A DNA stretch of 60,173 nucleotides from Cyanobacteriota bacterium SRBZ.bins.94.201705 (GTDB taxonomy: Bacteria; Cyanobacteriota; Cyanobacteriia; Cyanobacteriales; Cyanobacteriaceae). How positions within the stretch are numbered: position 1 is the stretch's first letter; each line of letters opens with the position of its first letter. A program made the position numbers and the translations under genes. Location: the NCBI GenBank assembly GCA_030549855.1, contig JAUQQP010000048.1:1-60173 (forward strand). Direction: 5' to 3'. The notes under the pieces were generated by a model. That model did no database searches, was not told where the DNA came from, and saw nothing but the letters and a program-made list of their open reading frames with translations. This document shows, one piece after another, positions 5,581 to 58,229 of the stretch.

Positions 5581-8500
5581 TACTATAGCAAGACACAACC
5601 ATCTTTTTCAAAAAATTGAGATGTCTGGCTTATGGTTGTTTTTAAGACTTCCCTCTTCGGTGGTTGATATGCTTACCCAGGGAATTGATATATTCAATGG
5701 GGGGATTCAGATGTCTTATGCCTATCCTAAAAATTTCCTCAAGGGGTGATTAACATACTTTCCCTGCTGCCACCACAGAAGACAAGGTGAGACAACAAGA
5801 CAATTTCTCCCAAATTTATTGATTTCCTTGTTAAAGTCTTCTAGTAACTATTGCCTACCCTCTATTCTTACAATCCTCTTGTCAAGACGCCGGAATGTGT
5901 TGTTTATTCTTCACATGAGGCATTAAGTTTTAACCTTTAAACGGGTAAAAGGTGTGGTTTATTCTCGCAACCCAAGACTCTAAACCCGCAGGCAGTAATT
6001 GTGTCTCTATTACTGGGGGATGGTTTTATCTTTGGGCAACTATTGTATCCCGCCTATGCCTAGTAAAACACAAGATATTATAACCGTTGGGCAGTTGTTG
6101 GAATGTCTCTTTCGTTTGTTATTACAATTCCTTTTTTCAAGCAATTGACAAATCCTGTCGGCTTTCAACAAGAGAGGATACAAAATAATCTTCCTTTTAG
6201 TTTACTGGCAAGTTAGTGTTTGTTTTTCAAGTCTCTTTTTTGGGAAATTTTAGGAAATTTACAAGTTTGGTTTACCGGTAGACGAGGAATCAATTGAAAC
6301 ACTAATATTTTTCCCTGTTGTCGGGTAGTTAGCATTTGTTTACCAATCCCTGGGTAAGCATACTCCTTTTAGATACTCTGGATACCCTGCTTATTCACAA
6401 TGTTATTTCTACTCTTTTTTGGGAAGTTGGCATTTGTTTGCCATTTAAGAAAACATATCCCTATCGGCTAGTCTGTACAATCCGTCTATTATAGGGATAA
6501 CAAGTCTTCTGGAGACAACAAAAAAATCTGCCGGTTAGACAAGAAGGTGTCTTGTTTGTCTTATCTTTGGCGGTTTTAACCGTCAGGCAATTGGTGTTTC
6601 TTGTTTATCCCTGAAAACATGTCTAGCCAACACACCTACACAATAAACTCATACAACCATAAAGCCAAAAATTAACCTCCCAGGCGGTTGATATTTCTGG
6701 TTTACCAACAAAAGCTGTAGATAATTTTCTCTTTCAGAAGATTGGCATGTCTCGTTTGTCGTTGATACTCTCTTTTTCACACAGTAGACATCTATTGTTT
6801 GCCACCATGGGAAATAAGGCAAGACAATCCTACCCCTGGCTATTTTTCCTTCTATTTTCCCCCACTGGTCAGATAATTGAAACCCTGAGTTTACCCCTTT
6901 CACAGAGAAATCTTCCCGTAAGAAAGCCTCAGTGTCTTACTGGCTTTTTCCTCCCAAAAGAAGCAGTCTCCAGGCGGGATTAATAAATCCTTCTTCAGAT
7001 AGTCGATATATATAGTTTATCACCGGGAAACAATGCAATTCTTCTAACAGTCAAGGTATTTGGTTTATTCTGATAATCTCTCCCCGCAGACACAGTCGAC
7101 ACATCCCATTCTGCCACTATACAATAGGGAAAAAATTCTCCCGCTAGCTAATGGTTTTGGAAATCCCACCCCCCTCCCTTAAAACTAAAATGCCCTGTCT
7201 ATCCCCCCTTGGGAAACCCTTTTCAAGCAACGTAAACAATGCTTGTTTGCTGACATGTAAAGAGTCGAAGTCTATCCCTCAAGCTGTCACCGTCTCCTTT
7301 TTATTATTGAAAGCCAAAACGTGTTTGTCTAACAACAATGTACACAAATCCGCATCATCAGATAATTGGCATCTATCGCCTACCCCCGTATAGCAAGAAA
7401 AAAAGCCACACCTCTATTCTACCATTAAAACAAAAAAACCAATTTTCCGGATTTGTAATGCAGAATTTAGCCTTTAAATCCCCTAGCGTCTTTTAAATCC
7501 TCATTCAGGCAATAGATACATCCAATTCGACACCTCAGTAGACAGGGGGAAACAACTAGAAGGCAGTTTACACATATGTTTTACCATTATACGAAGAAGG
7601 AAGAAAAACTCTTTGGCAGAGGTAGCCGGGATATTTTGCAGCCTCTCATGCCTTTATTATGGGGTATTTGGTATCCCTCTATTCGGATAGGGTGACAGAA
7701 GAAAATCTATATAGCTAATTGGATTCTTTTAATTATTCTTTCACGAAACGGAAATATATTTTCCAACGGAGATATATTTCCCAGAAAAATGAGGTAAATT
7801 TTCTATTACTTACTGGGAAACATAGTCTCATTTTAGGCAGCTTCTTTCATGCTTCCGAAACCCTTTGTTTTTCTGGAGATAAAATCTAGGCGAGTATAAC
7901 TACCAGATAATTATCTCCCTTTGTTTGTTTACCATTATCTATGGCATAGCAACAGATATATGAAAATAATGATAATATAAGGTTCGCCCGTGATTTGAAA
8001 ATTATATTTTAGGCCATATGGCTGGGGTTTGAGATGTCCGGTTTATTCTTAAAATTATTCCCAGGTAATTGGAGAATATAATTGGCAGTAAACGAGATAA
8101 ATAAGGCAACTCACCTCCCGTTGGGATGCAACTTTTATTGTTGAAACTTACCTGGCGACTTGGATATATAGTCTCTACCTCTACAAGGCAGAAAAAATTC
8201 CCCCATCGAAAAGCTACTCGTATATTTTGTTGACTTGTTGACAAAAACCCCTAGGCTGAAAAGTTAGCCTCTTCCAATAAAACGAGGAAGATAGAAAAAA
8301 ATTGTTGTACCACGGAAATGCCCTATTTGTTTTCCCTGAAATTTGTTGCTTCATATCCCACACATCGGAAAAATGAAATGAGTTGTTTGTCGTAATGTAG
8401 AGACGAAATTCAACGCTTGTGCGACAGAAATACCCCTTCCTCTCCAGATGGGTAAAAAAGAAGAGTATAATCGTCAGGAGATTGGCATATACCGTCTATT

Positions 8501-34189: not shown

Positions 34190-34279
34190 AGGGATTGGAG
34201 ACAATTGAGGAGGGAATATGGTATTTAACAGGGGGGAGGTGGATTATAGCATACCATGAGGGGGTTTAAATTTAAATGG
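34190..34279. repeat. Two-copy intergenic repeat, copy 2, entering the kinase gene
   Basis: Second copy of the repeat at 34062-34161. Its terminal palindrome TTTAAATTTAAA (34265-34276) supplies the stop codon of the adjacent minus-strand histidine kinase gene, so the element reaches into the gene's 3' end. Confidence 0.75.
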
Positions 34280-35762
34280 AACTGCAGTAGGGGTAGCTAG
34301 TGTGGTTTCCCAGGGGTAGAAAAATAGTTATTATTTCCCCTCCGTTTGGTTTTTGTCGGATAGTCAATTTACCTCCCAAGGCTTGGAAGATGTTTTTAGT
34401 GACATCATCACTGAGAGAAAGACTACCAGTTTCCGGCTGAAAAAATAGCAGTCTTCCTAGGGATTTGCCTTCGCCGCCAATCCACCCCACTTCTGAGGAA
34501 AACTTTAGTTTCAATTGATTTCCCGCTGGCAATACCAACATTTTAAAACGACAGCCACTTGGCAAACCGCGGATGAATTTCTCCATCAAGCCATTTAGTA
34601 CTTGACTGAGTATGGCCGGCTCACTTATAATCTGAGGCAGTTTTTGTGGTATAAAAACTTCTAATACAATGTTTCTTCTTTCCGCTTGTCTTTGCCAGTA
34701 GGGTACAGTTTGGTTTAATATATTTTCCAATGATGTTGGTATTAGTCTGAGTCTTTCCCTTTTACTTTGCGACTCTAATTCTACCGCTTTAAATATCAAC
34801 TCCATGCGGTTTATTTGTTCCGTGCATTCTTGTTCTATCTTTTCTATGTATTTTAGCAACTCTGGTTCTTTTTGAGCCTTTTTCCCCAGCAATTTTGCCA
34901 AGGTTTTTATAGTTGTCAAAGGTGTCCTTATTTCGTGGGTTAACGCCTGCAGCAACTCCAATTCTGGGTAGGGGGTTAGGGGGGTTTTCTTCAAGGATAT
35001 ACTAGTTTTGCCCGGCTTTTCTTCTTTCGCTGTATCTACCTCCCTCGATTCTGCTAACTTTTGTCTTTTCAAACTCTCTATGAACAGCCTACTGAATTTT
35101 TCCACTATTGTGTATCCCGGCGTCACAATCTTAAATCGCTGGTTTACCTTTTCCAAAATTTCCCTTTCCGACGCCGATATAAATTCGGCCAACCTTCTCC
35201 ACAAATAACCCCAAACTCTCTCAATTATTTTGGGATTGAAGGAGAAAAAGAAAGCCGATTCCCTGTTATTTCTAATTCCCTTGATCAAAAACAGAGAAAA
35301 TGAGTCAGTAAAAACCAGACAAAACTGGTCGTGCACAAAATAATTTTCTGGTATTCTAATATTAGCGAAGGAGGATTCAAAGGCAAAATAATCAGTAGGC
35401 TGTGGTTTGCTACCACTGGGGGGGAGGGGGGTTACCGACGTCTGTGGAGACAAAACCACAGTATGTAGATGGGGGATGAGTTGCCAGTTGTTGATAACGG
35501 GGGTGGGGGAGGATATTACAAAGCCACTTAAGTCGGTGTTGAAGGCAGTATTTTTTTCCCTTTTAATTGTCAGCCATAATAGTCTTTCCAGGGAGGCGAC
35601 TGCCCCATTCCATTCATGGTATGCTTGAATAGGGCTGTCAGAAGCCTGATATGCCCCACCCTTGCCAACGCCGCTATTATTGTACTGTAAATCTTCCCAC
35701 TCCTGTTCCTCTATCAAATCCAATAGACTGATACTCCGACAGTACTCTAATTTCATCCCCAA
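34272..35762 (-). CDS. Sensor histidine kinase with degenerate ATPase domain
   Basis: Soluble kinase-like protein of 496 residues. The N-terminal half (1-230) is an unassigned sensory region without membrane helices. The HisKA domain is clear, with His276 in LTHEIRTPLTTIKTL. The following ATPase domain is poor: the N box reads LMEKFIRGLP with no Asn at the expected place, and the G1 DxGxG box is absent, though a GGEIITIFLPLG C-terminal strand is present. It may be a pseudokinase, or it may phosphotransfer by interaction with a partner. The true start may be Met3. The last codons come from a repeat element. Confidence 0.75.
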   Translation of the reverse strand: MGMKLEYCRSISLLDLIEEQEWEDLQYNNSGVGKGGAYQASDSPIQAYHEWNGAVASLERLLWLTIKREKNTAFNTDLSGFVISSPTPVINNWQLIPHLHTVVLSPQTSVTPLPPSGSKPQPTDYFAFESSFANIRIPENYFVHDQFCLVFTDSFSLFLIKGIRNNRESAFFFSFNPKIIERVWGYLWRRLAEFISASEREILEKVNQRFKIVTPGYTIVEKFSRLFIESLKRQKLAESREVDTAKEEKPGKTSISLKKTPLTPYPELELLQALTHEIRTPLTTIKTLAKLLGKKAQKEPELLKYIEKIEQECTEQINRMELIFKAVELESQSKRERLRLIPTSLENILNQTVPYWQRQAERRNIVLEVFIPQKLPQIISEPAILSQVLNGLMEKFIRGLPSGCRFKMLVLPAGNQLKLKFSSEVGWIGGEGKSLGRLLFFQPETGSLSLSDDVTKNIFQALGGKLTIRQKPNGGEIITIFLPLGNHTSYPYCSSI

Positions 35763-53385: not shown

Positions 53386-54090
53386 CTAGGCTAGTTGTTT
53401 TTTTGACTGATGCCGCTTAAACAATATCCCCAAGCCTAGGGCTAAACCTGTGCCTAAAATTGTAACAGGCTCGGGCACCTCTTCTATCTCTAGGGTTAAA
53501 GTATAACTGGAAGTGTCCCCAGAACGACTAGAAGTAAGGGTGCCTGTGGCGGGAATGAGTCGGCCACCAAAGTTCAAAAAGCCTGTAAACTCGGGATAGG
53601 AAGAAACTACCGCCGGCCTTCCCCTGGAAGCTAACACCGTATAAGCCGCTGGCGACAGGTCAAAATTCAGGTTGCCAGTGACACTGCCCCATGTCCTGGT
53701 ACCAAAATTTATAAAGGAAGTCATGCCAGAATTAGTATAGAAAGGACTCCCTGCCACCCCCGGCGCCGTAAAGGTCAAATCACGGATTGCAAAACCACTT
53801 TGGCCGTCGTTTGTGCCTATTAGGTTGCTCAAACTAGGTACCAGACTATTAAAACGCCCTGTGGCACTTATCCCATCTATTGTCCTGAAATCCAGAATTA
53901 CGTTAGCCCTGCCCAAGCCGCTATTGCTTTGGAAGGAGAGATTACTCAGTCCGTTGATAGTAAGACTGCTTGTAGGACGACTCCCAGTCACACTTACTGC
54001 TTGGGCTGTCTCCGCATTAACACTTAACCCAGCCACTGCCGCCAGAGCCGCCACTGGTAGTATACTGAGGTACAGTTTTAAGTTTCTCAT
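53386..54090 (-). CDS. PEP-CTERM domain secreted protein
   Basis: Start is Met11 of the longer frame (ATG 54090), at the signal peptide MRNLKLYLSILPVAALAAV. The mature part is a beta-rich, Ser/Thr/Gly-rich region (SLVPSLSNLIGTNDGQ, GRPAVVSSYPEFTGFLNFGG). The C-terminal sorting signal is complete: VPEPVTILGTGLALGLGILF followed by KRHQSKK. Such proteins are processed by an exosortase and anchored or released at the cell surface in biofilm-forming bacteria. The DNA of its tail (about 53401-53470) is nearly identical to that of the neighbouring pseudogene, so the two arose by duplication or conversion. Confidence 0.85.
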   Translation of the reverse strand: MRNLKLYLSILPVAALAAVAGLSVNAETAQAVSVTGSRPTSSLTINGLSNLSFQSNSGLGRANVILDFRTIDGISATGRFNSLVPSLSNLIGTNDGQSGFAIRDLTFTAPGVAGSPFYTNSGMTSFINFGTRTWGSVTGNLNFDLSPAAYTVLASRGRPAVVSSYPEFTGFLNFGGRLIPATGTLTSSRSGDTSSYTLTLEIEEVPEPVTILGTGLALGLGILFKRHQSKKQLA

Positions 54091-54416
54091 TCTCTCTTTT
54101 CCTGTTAGAATTACTACCATCTCCTATGATATGATTATACGGGAAAAAGCCCAAAAGATCAATAGTTTTTGTCCTAAAAATCCCATTTTTCTCTTCATAT
54201 TATCTTTATCGAATTGCGTCTTAACTCGCCCCTAATTTCACTGCTACTTTAATAAAAAATCAAAAAATACAGGGTTTTCACGGATTCCTCTCCTGGAAGA
54301 TTTTTGAGTAAAAATACTGAAGTAATAATAGGGAGAGGTGAAGGGGAAAAATAAATGGGCCGAAAGGGCAGAGTAATCTAAAATAGAAATAACCTGAATT
54401 TAACCTAGGGACGGAC

Positions 54417-54773
54417 ATGACACAAACAGCTACCCCAAAGAAGGGAATTATCATTACTGAAAAAGCCCTTAAACATCTCTTAACCTTGAGAGAGAAACAG
54501 GGGAACAATGAACTATGCCTGAGAGTGGGTGTAAGACAAGGAGGATGTTCGGGGATGTCCTACATGATGGACTTTGAAACCCCTGATAATATTACCGAAC
54601 AGGATGAGGTTTTCGACTACGATGGTTTTAAAATAGTATGTGATCGCAAAAGTCTTTTGTACTTATACGGGCTACAACTAGACTATAGCGACGCCCTTAT
54701 CGGTGGAGGCTTCCAATTCACTAACCCCAATGCCACCCAAACTTGTGGTTGTGGCAAATCCTTCGCCGCCTAG
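54417..54773 (+). CDS. IscA/SufA-like iron-sulfur carrier
   Basis: A-type carrier that holds or delivers iron-sulfur clusters or iron. The 118 residues have the HesB family core with Cys44 in GGCSG and Cys110, Cys112 in the C-terminal CGCG motif, so all three ligand cysteines are present. The N-terminal extension is short. It is probably a housekeeping copy. It lies 644 bases from the suf-less neighbours and no other suf or isc gene is in the window. Confidence 0.93.
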
Positions 54774-54852: not shown

Positions 54853-54864
54853 GATTTGACGTCC

Positions 54865-55224
54865 ATGTGGCCTTTTTTCCCCCGCAAACCCCACAAAAAT
54901 CCTCCTCCCGCCTCCCCTCCTCCCCCAACTCTCCCTACGTCTATCAAACCACGTCGGCAAGTAAGAATACCCCCCCATTTTCAAAAACACCCTGTGGTTA
55001 CCTACTCCCAAGCCGAAATCCAAAGGGAGTTGAGAAAATACCCAAGATTGTTACGTATCCTCGGCTATGCCTATCAATATCAAATCACCTTTGCCGCCGA
55101 GGGGAAAGAAACACAATACTGGTTTTGTCGTAATCTCAGAGTTGCCACTATCCTTATTAAATACCTCCACGACAAACAATGGCCAGTCCACTGGCAGGAA
55201 AAACCCTTTAAACTAAAGTCATAA
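54865..55224 (+). CDS. Small conserved hypothetical protein
   Basis: A 119-residue protein from ATG 54865; an upstream TTG at 54856 would add three residues. The N-terminus is proline-rich (PPPASPPPPTLP), then a basic region and a compact C-terminal domain with YSQAEIQRELRKYPRLLRIL near 49-67 and FCRNLRVATILIKYLHDKQWP. I do not know its function. Its last codons and stop lie in a tandem 18-bp repeat. Confidence 0.65.
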   Translation: MWPFFPRKPHKNPPPASPPPPTLPTSIKPRRQVRIPPHFQKHPVVTYSQAEIQRELRKYPRLLRILGYAYQYQITFAAEGKETQYWFCRNLRVATILIKYLHDKQWPVHWQEKPFKLKS

Positions 55225-55394: not shown

Positions 55395-58229
55395 ATGGTA
55401 GCCTTCAACCTCACCCAGGAAAAAATTGCCCGTCATCCCTTCTGGGATATTCTGTGTTTCGGGGGGGATGCACAACTGTTTCGGAAACTAAAACAATACT
55501 GCGACAACATCTACTTTCTGGATAAACCCTGTCGTCTGATAAATAATCTACAGGCTATTTCCCCTGAGGAATTGAATCTTTCCCTTCTCTTCGTCATCAT
55601 CTCAAAAGCTACAAATATATCCGGTTATTTTTTTAGAAGAATCAGGGCTAAAATTAATAACTTTCTCCCCAAGATTCTGGTAATCTCCGCCGACAAAATA
55701 GATGGAAACACCAGAAAGTTACTCCTGGAAAACGAAGAGGTATTAGACTACTTAGAGGCCTACAATCTAAAATTTGATATTCTGGAACAAAAGGTAGTCA
55801 GTGCCCTAAAAGTTTACCACGAACAATGCATCTGTTTGGAAGCGGGAAAGAGAGAAGAAATTAGTCTCTGGGGAGGTAACAGTCAAATACAACAAATTGC
55901 CACTTTCATCCCCGGCATGGTATTCCAACTAAAATATGATTCCCCCCAGGATTGTTTCTTTACCTTTGTAAGTCGGGCAGTAGAAGATATTTTTGAGTGT
56001 ACCCCAGAAGAGGCCATTCAGGACATAAACAAAATAATATCCTGCATTAATGAGGAGCAAAACCTACAACTACAAAGAGTCATCCAGCTGTCAAAACAGT
56101 ATTTTACCCCCTTTAATTTCGACTGTCAAATTCTCACCCCCAGTGGCAAAACCAAATATATACGCATCCACTCCTCCCCCCAAAAAATATCAAAGGAAAG
56201 TCTGGTTTACAATGGCATCGTAATTGATATCACCGTGGAAAAGCAAAGGGAAATCGCCTTAAGAGAAAATGCCCTCCTCCAAAAAACAATCAATACTATC
56301 GTAGCCAAAATGAGGGAGACATTGGATTTTCAATCAGTCTGCAATACCGCCACCGCCGAAGTAAGAAATCTCCTAAATTGTGATCAAGTGGCAGTATATA
56401 AATTTCGGGAAGATTGGGGAGGAAGTTTTGTTGCAGAAAGTTGTCGTCATGACTCTGTCTCCCTTCTCCGTCACAACCAGGGGGTTTGGGATGATTCTTA
56501 CCTACAATCCCTACAAGGAGGTAGATACCGTTACGGCGATATTCTCACTGTTGATGATTTAGATGACTGTGAATTATCTCCTTGTCATCGTCAAAAATAT
56601 CGGGAATATAACATTAAATCCCTCTGTACAGTGCCAATTTTTTGTGGTAACAAATTGTGGGGATTATTGGCATGTTATTACCGTCACCGCTATCACTGGC
56701 AACCTCGTCATGTTAACATACTAAAACAAATAGCTAGTCAGTTAGGTATTGCCATCGAACAGGCTAATTTATTCCATGAAATTAAAAGACAATCGGAGGA
56801 GTTAAAACAAGCCAAGGAAAAGGCAGAAATTGCCTGTAAAGCCAAGAGTGAATTCATCGCCAACATCAGTCACGAAATTCGTACCCCCCTCAATGCTATT
56901 TTAGGTTTTGCCGATTTACTCCGAGATATAATTACCGACGAAAAAGGCAAAGACTATCTGGAAGCTATTATCACCAGTAGCAATAGTCTTTTATCCCTCC
57001 TCAATGACATTCTGGAATTGTCTAAGATTGAAGCGGGGAAAATGCCCATTACCTACAAGCCAATGCAACTCACATCTCTGTTGGAGGATATCATGGGTGT
57101 TTTCTCCCTCAAAGCCAAGGAAAAAAACTTAGACTTTCAGCTAATAATAGAAGAGAATTGCCCAGATAATATCCTTTTTGATGGTGCCAGATTAAGACAG
57201 ATACTGTTTAACCTAATCGGCAATGCTATTAAATTCACCCACCGAGGATACGTGAAAGTATTTGCCAGGGGAATTGATAATAATGATGGCCATTGTTGTG
57301 GATTTAAAATAACCGTGGAAGATACGGGAGTTGGTATTAAAGAAGACCAATTAGAGCGAATTTTTGAGGCATTTGCCCAAGAATGCGAACCAACTATCCG
57401 CCAATATGAGGGCATAGGTTTGGGTTTGACCATCACTAAAAGACTAGTATCCCTTCTCCAGGGAAATATTTATGTAGAAAGCCAGGTAGGTGTGGGAAGT
57501 AAATTCACTGTAGAATTTCCCCATGTAGCCTTAACTTCTTCTCCCGAAACACCTAACCCCGAAGAGAAATTACAACCTACTATACCCTATGTATTAGCCA
57601 TCAATCAAGCCGAATCAGATTTGGTGACAATCAGAGAGTATTTTCAGAAGAATAACCACCATGTGATTTGTGCTGAATCCGAAGAGGAAGCTATTGTTTT
57701 AATGGCAGAATACCGCCCAGAATTGATATTCTTAGGGGTAAATAATTCATCAGAAAGAGAGGAAGCATTTTTAAAAATGACTCAGGAATTATGTAGGAAT
57801 AGAAACGTACCTCTCATCCTTGTAGCCAACCCCGAAAAATCCCAAAATTTGCTCCAGAAAAATAGCAGCGAATGCTTGTTATTAAAACCAGTAAAAGAGG
57901 AAGATTTATTGGCAGTAATTCAAAGATTAGGTAGCCTGGAGCCTAAAGGAAAGGAAACCAGGTATTCAAAAACGAAAATGTCCCTTTGCCATCCTGAACT
58001 AAGGCAAAAGATGGAAGAAGTGTATAGGAAACAATGGCAGGAGATTAAGGAGACGAAAATTATATCCAGGATAAAAAAATTTGCGGAGAAATTAAAGGAA
58101 GAAGCCACCAAATATAATGATAATATCCTGCTAAATTACGCAGCAAAAATAAAGGAGGACATTGAAAACCTAGACTTGGAATCCCTGGATAAAACCCTAA
58201 ATAGGTTTCCAGAGTTACTAACAGGATAA
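55395..58229 (+). CDS. Hybrid histidine kinase with PAS and cyanobacteriochrome-like GAF
   Basis: A 944-residue soluble signalling protein. Order by eye: a degenerate receiver-like N-terminal region (1-140), PAS (165-285), GAF (308-456), HisKA with His493 in [10 protein letters not shown], a full ATPase with N-box [11 protein letters not shown]1 DTGVGI and G2 GIGLGLTI, and a C-terminal receiver whose phospho-Asp is replaced (LIFLGVNN), though LLKPV is kept. The GAF shows the cyanobacteriochrome pattern [21 protein letters not shown] and SPCHRQ with candidate bilin-attachment Cys397 followed by His398. There is no PHY domain. A light-sensing role is likely but not proven; it could also sense another ligand. 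Confidence 0.85.

Follow-up and report, generated by a model that had tools for sequence, protein, structure and literature searches.

An extended red/green cyanobacteriochrome histidine kinase with a decayed C-terminal receiver in a genome of the Cyanobacteriaceae

The DNA analysed here, which we call the window, comprises positions 1 to 60,173 (60,173 nucleotides) of contig JAUQQP010000048.1 from Cyanobacteriota bacterium SRBZ.bins.94.201705, and it encodes a new, ordinary cyanobacteriochrome kinase of the extended red/green (XRG) lineage, a type already known. Its C-terminal receiver has decayed, a mildly unusual feature that is worth a second look. With a probability of roughly 0.78, we read the protein as a light sensor kinase of the hybrid type, containing one XRG GAF, which would carry phycocyanobilin on Cys397, follow a red/green cycle and, given its decayed receiver, work with a separate response regulator. 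The frame is a real gene rather than a chance one, since matches to cyanobacteriochromes in the PDB reach 2e-40 and dN/dS over the whole gene is 0.127 against the ortholog of a congener. The coordinates and the PAS-GAF-HisKA layout given in the original prediction agree with the list of open reading frames and with Pfam, whereas an N-terminal domain (residues ~16-145) and a C-terminal helical stretch (~865-942) were absent from it (Table 1).

Table 1. Coordinates of the kinase gene, its predicted domains and motifs, and its two upstream neighbours in the window.
Feature	Position	Strand	Basis
Fe-S assembly protein (IscA/ErpA-like), upstream	54417..54773	+	neighbour in 3/7 other genomes (L073, L074, L075)
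Small upstream gene	54856..55224	+	adjoins ortholog in 4/7 other genomes (L073, L074, L075, L079)
Whole gene, XRG-type cyanobacteriochrome histidine kinase, 944 aa	55395..58229	+	ATG, stop included; Pfam domains; family orthologs
N-terminal domain, residues ~16-145, probably receiver-like	55440..55829	+	predicted model and weak Foldseek match
PAS domain, residues ~170-285	55902..56249	+	Pfam PAS_3 190-263, E 1.4e-5
Cyanobacteriochrome GAF, residues 296-465, XRG lineage	56280..56789	+	Pfam GAF 311-454 (2e-21), PDB matches, tree
WXDXXL motif, W365-L370, WDDSYL	56487..56504	+	motif definition (PMC11284453, in part)
GGRYR, residues 375-379, holding the Arg equivalent to AnPixJg2 R301	56517..56531	+	alignment
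Cys397-His398, predicted bilin attachment site and neighbour	56583..56588	+	12/12 orthologs
Tyr405 at the 'helix Phe' position	56607..56609	+	Phe in 10/12 orthologs
HisKA, residues 483-548, phospho-acceptor His493	56841..57038	+	Pfam 5.5e-23
HATPase_c catalytic domain (Pfam 596-710)	57180..57524	+	Pfam 1.1e-24
C-terminal pseudo-receiver, residues 733-850: DD, D, T lost; K831 kept	57591..57944	+	Pfam, alignment, dN/dS
C-terminal helical stretch, residues 865-942	57987..58220	+	helices in model; present in 12/12 orthologs

When residues 296-476 were compared with the PDB by phmmer, 104 distinct sequences matched at 0.001 or below, headed by 6BHN (2e-40) and 5DFX (1.7e-38), which we take to be NpR6012g4 and Slr1393g3, and including 6XHG (7e-30), that is JSC1_58120g3, presumably a far-red-type XRG GAF. 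Among the best matches were also 5ZOH (1.7e-36), a biliverdin-accepting mutant of AnPixJg2 (PMC8156171, in part), and 3W2Z (1.6e-35), AnPixJg2 itself (PMC11284453, in part). The WXDXXL motif, which according to the cited part of PMC11284453 defines the XRG lineage, occurs as W365-D-D-S-Y-L370, its Trp and Asp being present in all 12 orthologs, as is the canonical Cys followed by His. The segments LQGGRYR and SPCHRQ (the latter starting at residue 395) that were singled out beforehand, together with Cys397-His398, are all there. No D.CF is found within the GAF, which lacks the second Cys of the DXCF group in the way XRG members do; a blue/green DXCF type was thus discarded. The window's genome yields 12 GAF matches, and this kinase alone among them combines WXDXXL with Cys-His.

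A cyanobacteriochrome phylogeny had been proposed as a check, with a grouping among non-bilin GAFs as the outcome that would speak against the idea. From 72 GAF domains cut, the 65 of at least 150 residues were kept (seven shorter ones were dropped) and joined by six PDB references to give 71 rows. All 12 orthologs group together (100/100), nested in a 37-row XRG clade (97/97) together with the three red/green references and JSC1_58120g3, the last being no closer than other subgroups; the branching order of the XRG subgroups, the place of the ortholog group included, is not settled by tree support. Since the 37-row clade also includes GAFs of the insert type, which have Cys-Tyr, and a row that lacks the Cys (the second GAF of L037), clade position alone does not prove bilin binding. 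On the other hand, 18 GAFs chosen by eye as lacking the canonical Cys all fall outside the 97/97 clade, 17 of them in a 100/100 clade of their own and L004 on a very long branch, so a grouping with non-bilin GAFs is ruled out by the tree.

The chromophore pocket tells a similar story. Five contacts described as crucial in AnPixJg2, W289, D291, R301, H322 and Y352 (PMC8156171, in part), are all present as W365, D367, R377, H398 and Y428, with an offset of 76 and a PDB alignment that is gap-free between these residues. The Trp, Asp, Cys, His, beta2 Phe and Tyr378 are identical in the 12 orthologs, Arg377 is found in 11 of them and Y428 is invariant among the 11 proteins aligned. For a wider comparison we took other GAFs in which the key places are occupied by Trp, Asp, Cys and His (76 rows, or 71 after merging those 99% identical). 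All four residues were required for inclusion, out of a total of 153 non-ortholog GAF rows, of which three have Trp and Asp but not Cys-His; the set leans towards relatives of the query because its rows come from matches within the order. The five contacts occur together in 64 of these 71 other XRG GAFs. The idea that the sequence around the chromophore site differs from the common families therefore has to be given up, as the pocket is of the extended red/green type (WXDXXL, Arg377, Tyr378, Cys397-His398, Tyr428 and beta2 Phe345), and colour type, held at first to be beyond guessing, can be predicted in outline, the GAF lying in the same clade as AnPixJg2, NpR6012g4 and Slr1393g3. The Arg that follows Cys-His was read correctly (Arg399), but it is nothing special: it varies among the orthologs (5/12) and occurs in five of the 71 other XRG GAFs, for which reason it was rejected as the mark of a new class.

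What sets the group apart from NpR6012g4, AnPixJg2 and Slr1393g3, which share with it WXDXXL, Cys-His, the beta2 Phe, the five contacts, the clade and the PDB match, is rather its own sub-clade, a Tyr at Cys+5 (12/12 orthologs versus 2/71 other XRG GAFs) and a loop before Trp435 that is one residue shorter (12/12 versus 0/71). Within the pocket, Tyr405, Leu384, Leu394 and Thr412 are departures from AnPixJg2, and in the predicted model the loop 339-375 is of low confidence (pLDDT < 50).

The pair of Phe residues of the red/green trapped-twist (PMC5240096, in part) is half present. The beta2 and helix Phe of Slr1393g3, F474 and F536 (PMC11733413, in part), correspond to F345 and Y405, so the helix Phe is replaced by Tyr in the window's genus. 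This Tyr is found in both genus members, while the other 10 of the 12 orthologs have Phe, as do 59 of the 71 other XRG GAFs; Arg399 and Tyr405 occur together in none of 74 other rows (identical rows only merged). As loss of the helix Phe has been linked to red-shifted photoproducts (PMC6121604, in part), colour has to be worded with care at this point, and Tyr405 would be the likeliest pocket change to shift the photoproduct. Taken further, the same residue could give an atypical photocycle, red/orange instead of red/green or with fast dark reversion, by which the protein would measure light intensity. Tyr is a mild change already present in six of the 71 other XRG GAFs, and the residues at the beta2 Phe and Leu370 positions are the usual ones, which leaves this alternative worth keeping in mind and unlikely. 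The position of AnPixJg2 Leu294 and AnPixJg4 Ile660 is reported to affect dark reversion strongly (PMC6121604, in part), and two orthologs (L010 and L011, in G013 and G014) carry Ile for the Leu of WXDXXL.

Under the preferred red/green reading, the expected properties are covalent phycocyanobilin, a red-absorbing dark state and a green-absorbing photoproduct. Phycocyanobilin attached to Cys397 would be kept in the red-absorbing dark state by Trp365, Asp367, Arg377, His398 and Tyr428. Light would then flip the D ring, and the photoproduct would be blue-shifted and absorb green, though Tyr405 may move it redwards, towards orange. This change would travel down the post-GAF helix (~437-474) into the HisKA dimer and set the autophosphorylation of His493, in whichever direction light may act.

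Two other chromophore arrangements have to be weighed here. The natural chromophore might be biliverdin, making the protein a far-red/orange sensor: biliverdin entry in AnPixJg2 is controlled by H293, F308, H318 and I336 (PMC8156171, in part), and these positions read Tyr, Leu, Leu and Thr, which are partly smaller residues. Yet the red/green Slr1393g3 reads Tyr, Leu, Phe and Thr, Tyr is what other XRG GAFs most often have at 293 (53/71), only one of the four positions agrees with AnPixJg2_BV4 (Y293, T308, Y318, V336), and bilin reductases are encoded in the genome, so that we regard biliverdin as very unlikely. Alternatively, an extra Cys could support a dual-cysteine photocycle. Cys392 and Cys427 are both specific to the genus (2/2 members, 0/10 other orthologs), and no Cys occurs at 392 in the 71 other XRG GAFs; but one of those GAFs does have Cys at 427, neither residue lies at the DXCF or insert position, and neither is placed near C10 by any structural evidence, all of which makes such a cycle decidedly improbable. 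As a separate observation, ortholog L019 (in G004) reads Tyr, Thr, Leu and Val across the biliverdin positions, a native match at three of four, and its GAF is a candidate natural biliverdin binder on these residues.

The supply of bilins was looked at in the window's genome, where three members of the bilin reductase family score above the curated cut-off. Two of the corresponding genes are adjacent (G000:C6:29365-30797) and resemble a pebA-pebB pair, so the organism may make phycoerythrobilin. Other GAF proteins are encoded in the same genome at G000:C9:11804-12919 and G000:C4:129908-134382, namely a protein of 1404 residues whose GAF is of DXCF type (Cys-Tyr) and a pair of ~1120 residues having two DPC(F/I)-type GAFs each, with Cys-His in one of the pair; these DXCF and DPC(F/I) proteins are possibly phototaxis receptors.

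HisKA and HATPase_c are intact by Pfam, both above their cut-offs like the GAF, and H493 is invariant among the 11 proteins aligned; the PAS_3 match ahead of the GAF barely passes (25.7 versus 25.6 bits). The full-length model (pLDDT 69, pTM 0.29) retrieved the ETR1 catalytic domain (Z 22.6, 149 residues, rmsd 1.5) and ShkA (Z 21.6, 216 residues, rmsd 6.2), in a search whose matches were filled by kinase domains and which hardly probed the other parts. A separate model of residues 1-160, built with seven sequences (pLDDT 80, pTM 0.77), shows alternating strands and helices, and this domain likely has a receiver-like fold according to the model; Pfam gave no receiver match in it. Foldseek support is weak, as no match lies at or below 1e-3: 6OAP_B comes first (E 1.3e-3), and the matches after it are for the most part receivers, along with some unrelated proteins such as small GTPases. 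The 6OAP chain, from a dual sensor histidine kinase (REC-GAF), also has a cyanobacteriochrome GAF, although one outside the XRG clade. The N-terminal domain is variable within the family: orthologs L017-L019 start near the PAS and do without it, while L012-L015 (L013 being cut) have an extra stretch ahead of the shared PAS, which in L012, the only one scanned, is another PAS.

As for the C-terminal receiver, the original prediction of a cyanobacteriochrome kinase whose receiver lacks its Asp is borne out. The expected Asp is Gly781 (LGVNN), the acidic pair (DD) reads N737 and Q738, the Thr is an Ala and K831 is kept, so the set of a working receiver (DD, D, T, K) is broken. Pfam places Response_reg at 744-842 below its threshold (E 0.09). 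In the cited part of PMC12632262, a receiver domain counts as a pseudo-receiver once one or more of its five active-site residues are missing; with four of five lost, and with strands and helices predicted to alternate at 732-847, the domain qualifies as one. DD and D are lost in both genus members (N-Q or N-E, and Gly), and the Thr, lost in the window protein, is kept in the congener. The ten orthologs of other genera retain the phospho-Asp, and nine of them both DD acids (L016 has D-Y), which makes the loss of the Asp look recent. By Pfam, the receiver scores 76.7, 65.3 and 61.7 bits in the three orthologs scanned from other genera, and falls to 27.3 bits in the congener and to 13.4 in the window protein.

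Between the two genus members the receiver is 51% identical, against 71-86% for the other domains, and its dN/dS is 0.265, compared with 0.164 for the C-terminal stretch, 0.106 for the GAF (a 2.5-fold difference) and 0.043 for HisKA, values that are rough because they come from one sequence pair with dS of 0.8-1.7. The receiver is therefore relaxed but not free, and a non-catalytic role would fit; in the genus it has probably been retained for regulation or docking without catalysis. In related genera, phosphate could go to the built-in C-terminal receiver. With the receiver active site lost in the genus, it would have to go to a separate response regulator.

Known precedents are CikA and ShkA, in both of which the pseudo-receiver inhibits autophosphorylation (PMC12632262, in part). 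The likeness is that of a pseudo-receiver within a histidine kinase and we claim no membership for the window protein, whose orthologs from other genera, unlike CikA and ShkA, keep the phospho-Asp. A bolder, rather doubtful proposal would be that a red/green hybrid kinase was converted in this genus, the C-terminal pseudo-receiver gating the kinase directly in the manner of CikA and ShkA and Tyr405 retuning the photoproduct. If true, the conversion, starting from a kinase with an internal phospho-receiver, would amount to the recent birth of a pseudo-receiver, one that could be compared with working-type members of the same family. Working-type receivers in orthologs that are 42-51% identical offer in any event a natural experiment on receivers unable to take phosphate.

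Orthologs occur in 12 of the 15 family genomes searched, the window's included, the other eleven being 42-76% identical to the window protein (L013 is cut by a contig end); most of the family genomes searched thus share one conserved red/green-type kinase. In the remaining three, G012 (67% complete) has a relative at 32% only, G010 gave no match at 1e-60 and G001 holds an ortholog remnant only. This remnant (L078, ~7327-8037, minus strand) comprises the PAS and the beginning of the GAF, interrupted by stops, and a short piece lies ~1.1 kb away; the rest was not found nearby. Such losses, together with the decayed receiver, could be taken to mean that bilin binding by the GAF has been lost in a gene under decay. 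The low dN/dS of GAF and HisKA between the two genus members and the retention of the five contacts, the Cys and the beta2 Phe make this barely credible. A supposed pseudogene in G005, with eight stops counted over query residues 78-942, was also rejected, since an intact frame of 830 residues spans 162-942 and the stops sit upstream.

Outside the family, the best whole-protein match is L053 (38%), whose GAF has Phe for the Trp and Cys-Tyr for Cys-His. A scan of named genomes gave 13 loci at no more than 38% identity, mostly Cys-Tyr insert-type GAFs; as its patterns were fixed query peptides, it is a poor guide to distribution. In plasmid records there were 18 relatives, at 42% identity or less. 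Among the titles listed in literature searches under presumed genus names, none names the ortholog group.

Around the gene, seven surroundings of orthologs were examined, and neither upstream neighbour was matched in L076, L078 and L080, so synteny supports orthology in the nearer genera only. The small upstream gene has no Pfam or NCBIfam match, and a Pfam scan of 10 neighbours found no response regulator. Elsewhere in the window, at 34272-35762, lies another histidine kinase with weak matches (minus strand; best NCBIfam match 2e-13, all below curated cut-offs). Moreover, the protein encoded at 53386-54120 (minus strand), with no Pfam match, ends in VPEPVTILGTGLALGLGILFKRH, a C-terminus that looks like a PEP-CTERM sorting signal.
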